Positions 27,905 to 30,655 of a stretch of 34,213 nucleotides of DNA are shown here, one piece after another. The stretch comes from Gemmataceae bacterium (GTDB lineage Bacteria; Planctomycetota; Planctomycetia; Gemmatales; Gemmataceae), in assembly GCA_026419115.1 (NCBI GenBank), contig JAOAAA010000029.1, positions 1 to 34,213 of the forward strand, read 5' to 3'. The notes beneath the pieces were generated by a model. That model saw only the letters and a program-made list of their open reading frames with translations. It ran no database searches and had not been told where the DNA came from. The translations under genes and the position numbers were made by a program. The number at the start of each line of letters is the position of its first letter. The stretch's first letter is position 1.

Positions 27905-28165
27905 TTACCCAAGTAATTCTTTGATTAAGGCCGCGACGAGTTGGGGATCTTTTTGAGAGACGATATGCGTGATTCGACTAGCGGGGATTTCGAGTTTCGT
28001 CATCATTTCTTGTGCTCGCTTCCAAAGGGTTGCCTTTTTTTTCTCGGTCTCGGCCAAGAATAACTCCGTGACCAACTCCGAGAGTTTTTGAATTTGGATG
28101 GCCTCGAAATTTCGGTAATACCCTTTGATGATCCGTTGCTGGTATCGGGTGTAATCTTCAAGCAT
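27905..28165 (-). CDS. Small helical protein paired with ferritin-like protein
   Basis: The 86-residue protein starts at an ATG 8 bp after the stop of the ferritin-like gene, so the two are almost surely one operon. It is predicted all-helical and charged, with no signal peptide or membrane segment. It opens 'MLEDYTRYQQRIIKGYYRNF', carries 'KLSELVTELFLAETEKKKA' and ends 'KDPQLVAALIKELLG'. I do not recognise the family. Tight linkage suggests a partner or adaptor of the upstream protein. Confidence 0.75.
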   Translation of the reverse strand: MLEDYTRYQQRIIKGYYRNFEAIQIQKLSELVTELFLAETEKKKATLWKRAQEMMTKLEIPASRITHIVSQKDPQLVAALIKELLG

Positions 28166-28173
28166 GTATGGTT

Positions 28174-29574
28174 TTACTCCACGGCGTTGAGGTCGGCCCG
28201 TTTTCCTTCGTAGGTGGTCGAATAGGCAAGGATTGCCGGTTCGGGGGGCAGGCCGGCGCGCTCACAAGCCTGCATATAAATCGCCGGCCACCAATTTTCG
28301 TGAGCCGTTAAGCCCCGCTCGCGAACCTCGGCCCAGTTACTGAGAATCTTCGACCAAGCCCGATCCCCATAATCCAAAGCAGCTTGTAAATTCTCGAACT
28401 GCGGGACATACCACTCCCGACCAATTTGCGAATGCAAAACCTCATCGGCCCAATCGAAATCCTGAATGGTCGCTGCCAAGGGATTTTCCGATTGTTGGGC
28501 TACCTCGAATTCGTATCGCTTGCCTGTTCTCGGCATCAATCCTTGTTCGATAAAGAACAACACTCCGTGACGTTCCAACGGGCTACACTCGGTATTGAGA
28601 CGATACGACCAATTCCATGTAATCTTGGCTTGGGTCCAATCGATCCCTAGGGCCACAAAACCCACTTCGCCCATCATGGCATGGCGGGCTTCATCCCAAA
28701 TTTGCCGGCTCATTTTATGATAGTATTCCCAAGGTCTTCCTGAAGTTTCTGCAAGAATGCTGGCCATCATTTCCGGAACGTCGATCTCTCGAATCCGCTT
28801 GAAGTACATCATCAAGATTTTCGCCCGAGCGGGGAAATTCGCATCGTACAAAAACGCTTCGGCATTGACCCCTTGGTTCCAAACGTCGGTGAAGCGTTCA
28901 TCGCGTTGAGGAATCCGATCGTAGACATAGGGTTTCTCGGAGGTGATTCGTCTCACGGCGACTACCGTTTCGCTACCGGCAATACCCCCGAGATTTTGTA
29001 GGATGGCGTGCAGATTCTGTTCCCATTCTCCCTGACGAGGACAAGCCAATTTTTCTAGGGCCTGTTCCCCAAAGCGGAGCATTTCTTCCAGCTCCAGTAA
29101 CAAGAACCGTAAAAGCCGACGAGACGGGGCATCGGTCAAAGGATTCGTTTCTTGGAAATAGGCTTCCACTGCCTGTTTCACAGCAGGGATCGCCACACCA
29201 TACAAGCCCACCAAAAGTTCTTCCGTGGTTCGGGCATTGCGTATTTCGTCGAAGAAAATTTCGAGGGCCTCGTTCGGGACCACTTCCAACCCCAAGGGAG
29301 GCTCTCGCATCTCGGCCACACGATTGCGAATCGCCGTGATGTGTTCCGCACACAAATAGGCATGATGCGAGAACGCCGTTTTTAATTCGTAGATCGGTTC
29401 CGACGTGATTCGGGCCGTGAAAATTTCGTGCAGTCGTTTCAAAGCATAATGCAAGGCCTTGTGCCGACGCACACACTCTGCCACTAGCAAGCCGGGTTGT
29501 GCTGCCTGCTCATGCGTACACAAACCCGCCAAAGGAGGAAGATTCCGATACGTTTGATATTGCGATGCGGTCAT
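28174..29574 (-). CDS. Ferritin-like, predicted di-iron protein of unknown function
   Basis: The protein has 466 residues from the ATG at 29574, which has GGAG 9 nt upstream; a TTG 15 bp earlier is less likely. It is almost wholly helical and cytosolic. The second half has the spacing of a four-helix di-iron site: E268 ('VPEMMASIL'), EARH (295-298), E343 ('LFFIEQGL') and EVLH (378-381). This is the E...ExxH...E...ExxH pattern of ferritin-like oxidases and hydroxylases. The first half is also helical, with a His/Glu-rich stretch ('AFSHHAYLCAEHITAIRNR') and no clear ligand set. I cannot name the family. A small helical partner follows 8 bp downstream. An oxygen-activating or iron-handling role is inferred. 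Confidence 0.75.
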   Translation of the reverse strand: MTASQYQTYRNLPPLAGLCTHEQAAQPGLLVAECVRRHKALHYALKRLHEIFTARITSEPIYELKTAFSHHAYLCAEHITAIRNRVAEMREPPLGLEVVPNEALEIFFDEIRNARTTEELLVGLYGVAIPAVKQAVEAYFQETNPLTDAPSRRLLRFLLLELEEMLRFGEQALEKLACPRQGEWEQNLHAILQNLGGIAGSETVVAVRRITSEKPYVYDRIPQRDERFTDVWNQGVNAEAFLYDANFPARAKILMMYFKRIREIDVPEMMASILAETSGRPWEYYHKMSRQIWDEARHAMMGEVGFVALGIDWTQAKITWNWSYRLNTECSPLERHGVLFFIEQGLMPRTGKRYEFEVAQQSENPLAATIQDFDWADEVLHSQIGREWYVPQFENLQAALDYGDRAWSKILSNWAEVRERGLTAHENWWPAIYMQACERAGLPPEPAILAYSTTYEGKRADLNAVE

Positions 29575-29660
29575 GGCCCGAAACTCCAAAAGCTGTGAGC
29601 TTCAGTTGATTTTATGAATGGAATCACTTTTGGTTCCTTCGATGGTTCTCATATCATTCC

Positions 29661-29738
29661 CTGAGATAGTTTGACCCCCAAACTTTCTGAGATAGTTTGC
29701 CCCCCTGATTTTCTGAAATAGTTTGCCCTCTGACCCCG
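29661..29738. repeat. 26-bp tandem repeat, three copies
   Basis: Units begin at 29661, 29687 and 29713, exactly 26 bp apart, each opening CTGAGATAGTTTG or CTGAAATAGTTTG followed by a C-rich stretch. The array ends 9 bp before the ATG of the RraA-like gene, so it forms the whole proximal upstream region and replaces any Shine-Dalgarno site. Confidence 0.9.
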
Positions 29739-30500: not shown

Positions 30501-30517
30501 TTCAGAAGCAGATCATC

Positions 30518-30625
30518 ATTCCCCCAGAGTGCGCCTTCACTCAGAACGTGCCTTTCCTCGTGATGTTGATTCCCCCAGAGTGTGCATTCCCCCAAGGTGA
30601 TCATTCGCTTAGAATGTTCCTTCGT
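30518..30625. repeat. Irregular direct repeat between RraA-like and SMP-30-like genes
   Basis: ATTCCCCCAGAGTG occurs at 30518 and 30569 (period 51), and ATTCCCCCAAGGTG at 30586. TTCACTCAGAACGTGCCT and TTCGCTTAGAATGTTCCT are further related blocks. The region fills most of the gap before the SMP-30-like gene. Confidence 0.75.
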
Positions 30626-30655
30626 CCAAAAAATTCTCTTTCATGGAGTGTCGAT

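Follow-up and report, generated by a model that had tools for sequence, protein, structure and literature searches.

Di-iron ferritin-like proteins perform difficult oxidations, and the locus described here raises the question of whether a planctomycete protein of 466 residues (P0001) belongs among them, what it might do, and whether the 86-residue protein encoded beside it (P0002) is its partner. The window, that is, the whole stretch of 34,213 nucleotides that was analysed, is contig JAOAAA010000029.1 from the genome of a Gemmataceae bacterium (GCA_026419115.1; 4.26 Mb in 323 contigs). A preliminary description had proposed an uncharacterised oxidase, hydroxylase or iron handler, built as a di-iron four-helix bundle with an additional helical N-terminal half and served by a dedicated small adaptor. 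An in-frame TTG at 29589 would lengthen P0001 to 471 residues, and the small open reading frame described downstream is indeed present, 8 bp past the stop codon (Table 1). According to a Pfam scan, the flanking genes in the window encode a 3-keto-disaccharide hydrolase family protein and an RraA-like protein.

Two repeat arrays were observed close to these genes. Three tandem copies of a 26-bp unit (CTGAGATAGTTTG...) occupy positions 29661-29738, between the divergent starts of P0001 and the RraA-like gene, and the 16-bp core of this unit has no other occurrence in the genome. Additionally, degenerate repeats with a 17-bp spacing lie at 30517-30639, between the RraA-like and SMP-30-like genes, where five copies of a 38-nt reference match it at 61-100%.

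Table 1. Positions of P0001, its bundles and candidate metal ligands, and the adjacent gene within the window.
Feature	Position	Strand	Evidence
P0001, two-bundle ferritin-like protein, 466 aa, ATG to stop	28174..29574	-	ORF, alignment, AF2 model
N-terminal four-helix bundle, residues 28-200	28975..29493	-	AF2 helices 31-56, 62-88, 117-142, 149-175
C-terminal di-metal bundle (predicted), residues 249-388	28411..28830	-	AF2 helices 249-276, 282-308, 332-345, 365-388
E263 codon, likelier helix-A metal ligand	28786..28788	-	Glu in 21/21 diverse C-domains
E268 codon, ligand of the preliminary description; likelier second-sphere	28771..28773	-	Glu in 63/63 close, 16/21 diverse
EARH codons, residues 295-298, candidate ligands E295 and H298	28681..28692	-	63/63 close, 21/21 diverse
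E343 codon, candidate helix-C ligand	28546..28548	-	63/63 close, 21/21 diverse
EVLH codons, residues 378-381, candidate ligands E378 and H381	28432..28443	-	63/63 close, 21/21 diverse; profile match 5k52
P0002, 86-aa conserved planctomycete protein, adjacent gene outside the system	27905..28165	-	ORF, distribution

Spread of the family and its gene neighbourhood

P0001 is a real, conserved protein. Scanning genome contigs with its sequence returned 298 stretches, 283 of which encode a relative; the best 80 of these loci, mostly from Planctomycetota and Verrucomicrobiota, were retained, and P0001 was aligned with 62 of them at 53-69% identity to give a close alignment of 63 sequences. Matches occur in 36 of 99 related genomes and in 15 of the 294 genomes of an even sample of the phylum, although 8 of these 15 are only 21-28% identical. 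A wider profile found matches in 23 of 240 genomes from the phylum of L034, a locus titled Spartobacteria and hence verrucomicrobial, with up to four copies in some genomes. A quick gene tree requires two changes for Planctomycetota and two for Verrucomicrobiota, which makes mostly vertical descent with loss likely; rows labelled Bacteroidales and Thermoflexales are nested within the groups of these two phyla and may represent mis-binned contigs. Searches for plasmid carriage, in NCBIfam and with PADLOC gave no match for P0001. Frames of about 650-720 residues in seven genomes (G548, G554, G570, G587, G591, G613 and G424) match the profile only over its putative di-iron C-terminal portion and are possibly other fusions of this domain.

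Across the 80 loci, the P0001 family has no conserved gene neighbour. Clustering of the reading frames placed DUF1501-like proteins in 15 loci, where they adjoin the gene chiefly within a single group of close relatives; little else emerged. Neighbouring frames were chosen by a codon-position GC filter, with long ones trimmed to 330 residues, and were scanned against Pfam; among the 25 families listed, DUF1501 was the most frequent in the 140 nearest neighbours (9/140, as against 2 of the 111 comparison frames lying more than 3 kb away), and the next families reached at most 5. Beyond DUF1501, the 25 families listed include no function-bearing neighbour family, only scattered small counts; AraC-type domains, in 3 of the 140, are too few to use. 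With no accompanying gene, the enzyme must rely for its electrons and substrate supply on general cell functions or on genes located elsewhere. In two related genomes (L142 and L143), a distant relative of P0001 lies just upstream, on the same strand, of a gene that we take to encode a Fur-family regulator, with presumably AraC-like genes and a phytanoyl-CoA-dioxygenase-like gene nearby.

The 86-residue protein had been read as the dedicated adaptor of a di-iron enzyme, and the arrangement of the two genes, 8 bp apart on the same strand, suggests that they are probably co-transcribed in the genome of the window. However, a tblastn search of the 80 P0001-family loci with this protein, at E values up to 10, recovered only the window's own copy (L081); the small gene lies beside the large one in 0 of the 80 fetched loci, 78 of which hold at least 300 bp downstream of the large gene (the exceptions are L023 and L024). 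Nor is the presence of the two genes associated across the 99 related genomes: the small gene is found in 93 of them and P0001 in 36, with the small gene in 34 of the 36 genomes that have P0001 and in 59 of the 63 that lack it (Fisher p = 1). Both genes share a contig in 9 of the 34 genomes having both. Only the window's genome has them adjacent, with match starts 269 bp from each other; in the others they are separated by 17 kb to 7.1 Mb. Moreover, the small family is present, nearly always as a single copy, in 120 of 244 genomes sampled across the phylum. The adaptor reading thus finds no support, and a dedicated complex of the two proteins is very improbable; the 86-residue protein is an independent protein conserved in planctomycetes. 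Dropping the supposed adaptor spares later work from pursuing a false complex.

The small family itself shows 11 invariant positions across 19 aligned members and gave no Pfam match above the cut-off and no NCBIfam match. In 5 of 20 loci of its gene (27905-28165 and L083-L101), a protein that presumably resembles D-aminoacyl-tRNA deacylase is encoded nearby.

Two helical bundles and a candidate dimetal site

Modeling of P0001 with AlphaFold2 (AF2) from the 63-row alignment yielded an all-helical structure with a mean pLDDT of 92.3 and a pTM of 0.92, in which two four-helix bundles are arranged in one chain, in agreement with the helical protein and extra N-terminal half described initially. 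The C-terminal bundle was also modelled alone (pLDDT 90.1), and a ferritin-like four-helix bundle appears in both the whole-chain and the C-domain models. Foldseek returned no match at E <= 0.001 for either model. In the whole-model fold comparison, which is dominated by the N-terminal bundle, Z scores of 15.6-17.6 were obtained to Dps-like, bacterioferritin, ADO and R2lox chains, marking the fold of the N-terminal bundle as ferritin-like. The C-domain model scored Z 9-11 to Dps, mini-bacterioferritin, ADO, and toluene and methane monooxygenases, values below the safe range of the tool for helical bundles, where, as the tool warns, the common helical arrangement alone may explain a match. The best Foldseek rows of the C-domain, at E values of 0.014-0.04, were 4ii4_B of the PaaA-PaaC subcomplex (0.014), AetD (0.018) and ADO; the top rows are mostly oxygenases or oxidases (PaaA/PaaC, AetD, ADO, CmlI and MMOH). 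TenA proteins, which to our knowledge are not di-iron oxygenases, also appear among these rows, and Dps and bacterioferritins are found among the VIA rows. On these predictions, the fold class of P0001 is clear, whereas its closest family is not.

No solved relative of the whole of P0001 was convincing. A profile match to "Tet4 Variant" chains (E 4e-5) was rejected as chance, because it adds together three copies of a single weak stretch, the protein being repetitive, and leaves the Glu and His ligands unaligned, and a single-sequence match to propanediol oxidoreductase (E 1.5) was regarded as noise.

In the AF2 model, the candidate metal ligands are distributed over all four helices of the C-terminal bundle. 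All the Glu and His residues named in the preliminary description occur where they were said to be, and E263, E268, E295, H298, E343, E378 and H381 are each conserved in 63 of 63 close sequences. To this set a more diverse MAFFT alignment of 21 C-domains was added, comprising 9 close members, 8 distant relatives (16-24% identical to P0001) and 4 DUF455 proteins. In it, E263, E295, H298, E343, E378 and H381 are invariant (21/21), whereas the position of E268 holds Glu in 16, Ala in 3 and Met in 2. The dimetal-carboxylate ligand set of ferritin-like proteins, E, ExxH, E, ExxH, is therefore present, one group per helix. The first Glu was taken to be E268 in the initial reading, and this part probably needs correcting: given its lower conservation, the helix-A ligand is probably E263, with E268 as a nearby acidic residue. 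Counted from E263, the first motif reads EX31EX2H, and from E268 EX26EX2H, the second motif being EX34EX2H; cyanobacterial ADO has two EX28-29EX2H motifs (PMC4286721). In the AF2 model, E263 lies 13 residues before the end of helix 249-276 and E295 lies 13 residues into helix 282-308, so that the two, being equidistant from the turn, should face each other across it. Together, the conserved ligands, the topology of the model and a distant in-register match to DUF455 lend good support to the original proposal of a di-iron four-helix bundle.

The N-terminal bundle differs in its conservation. H42, E63, E77 and E88 are each found in 63 of 63 close sequences; in the N-terminal part of a 13-row alignment (A2), only K65, R85 and G123 are invariant besides the initial Met, so no di-iron ligand set is conserved there. 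An internal duplication of the two bundles was also considered and lacks sequence support (hhalign probability 0.3%).

Oxidase, oxygenase or iron handler

Conservation and modeling together make it very probable that P0001 is a dimetal ferritin-like protein, and it is somewhat more likely than not to be an oxidase or oxygenase that uses O2. Our best reading, of moderate confidence, is that of a dimetal oxidase or oxygenase that stands alone and has a distant relation to DUF455. Most likely, P0001 would be self-contained, a di-iron enzyme using activated O2 for the oxidation or oxygenation of a small molecule, with two metals held in the C-terminal bundle between E263 on helix A, E295 and H298 on helix B, E343 on helix C, and E378 and H381 on helix D. 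Because P0001 has no dedicated genetic partner, its electrons would probably come from a general cellular reductase. The N-terminal bundle, in turn, would probably steady the catalytic bundle or shape the substrate pocket. PaaC, a separate subunit, is thought to play such a part for PaaA, and by this analogy we infer a PaaC-like role for the N-terminal bundle.

The same ligand pattern could instead serve the handling of iron or another metal, in a ferroxidase, iron store or sensor that has no organic substrate. Ferritins and bacterioferritins use the same six-ligand pattern, the best fold matches of the N-terminal bundle are Dps-like proteins and bacterioferritins, and the top VIA rows of the C-terminal bundle include Dps and mini-bacterioferritin; furthermore, the gene just downstream of the distant relatives in L142 and L143 is presumably of the Fur family. 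However, no iron-storage or iron-transport family appears by name among the 25 families listed for the 140 neighbouring proteins, and P0001, with one site per two bundles, is unlike the cage ferritins, which are small and consist of a single bundle. An iron-handling role is accordingly judged unlikely. Another dimetal protein, R2lox-like or otherwise, with a Mn/Fe or other metal centre and a ligand-binding or one-off oxidising role, appears more doubtful still: R2lox chains are among the fold matches of both models, but other bundles match at least as well, and the sequence gives no pointer to the metal.

An oxidative enzyme is the preferred reading of P0001. A conserved family without a curated name, with no NCBIfam match and only a sub-threshold Pfam match, has kept its active site in full together with a fused metal-free bundle, and it suggests that two little-studied phyla carry out oxidative chemistry yet to be assigned.

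Comparison with DUF455, ADO and PaaA/PaaC

The sole Pfam match of P0001 is to DUF455 (PF04305), over residues 269-394, and at 13.1 bits it falls far below the gathering cut-off of 34.3. The same domain is matched at low score by 56 of the 63 close members (best E 6e-6), and two distant relatives of P0001 that share its twin bundles exceed the cut-off, with 36.6 and 40.1 bits. Comparison by hhalign with four DUF455 proteins gave an E value of 1.3e-4, with a probability of only 53.5% and the ligands of helices A and B in register; under MAFFT, the four proteins align in register at all six ligand positions and at E268. Since distant relatives pass the cut-off and the profiles align in register, P0001 is remotely related to DUF455, although the curated cut-off places it outside the family. 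Size sets the two apart as well: three clean DUF455 reading frames encode 267-287 residues, as against 466 in P0001, and are therefore too short for a second bundle of the size seen there. In the literature searched, which did not extend to preprints and most subscription papers, no function was found for DUF455, PF04305 or COG2833; the available part of PMC4520260 gives none for DUF455, and that of PMC13061610, considered as a possible source, concerns AurF/CmlI-type enzymes and not the P0001 family. The model of P0001 and the question of E263 or E268 bring DUF455 within reach.

A second resemblance is to ADO (PF11266). The wider-family profile aligns the DExxH of helix D with the corresponding motif in aldehyde decarbonylases (5k52, E 0.0066), in which, according to PMC4286721, the Glu and His of this motif bind iron; the ligand kinds E, ExxH, E, ExxH are likewise common to both (PMC4286721). 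ADO differs in being a single bundle with EX28-29EX2H spacing. Moreover, P0001 does not match the ADO family profile: PF11266 had 0 matches in the whole source genome, while the same search on 14 control genomes gave matches in Caulobacter vibrioides and Synechococcus elongatus, one of them above the cut-off.

A parallel in architecture is to PaaA/PaaC, and 4ii4_B, from the PaaA-PaaC subcomplex, heads the Foldseek rows of the C-terminal bundle, with an E value (0.014) close to that of AetD (0.018), and other chains follow it. PaaA and PaaC share a fold, the former binding metal and the latter serving as a structural subunit (PMC4498308), and P0001 would similarly pair one metal-binding with one metal-free bundle. 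The differences are that both bundles lie in a single chain in P0001, that they have no sequence relation to each other, and that no Paa family is found among the 25 neighbour families listed around its relatives. We tentatively regard the P0001 family as possible single-chain ferritin-like oxygenases, occurring mainly in Planctomycetota and Verrucomicrobiota. They may join a catalytic di-iron bundle that shares its ancestry with DUF455 to a metal-free bundle of sister fold, have a reaction and substrate of their own in these phyla, and form a one-polypeptide counterpart of PaaA/PaaC.
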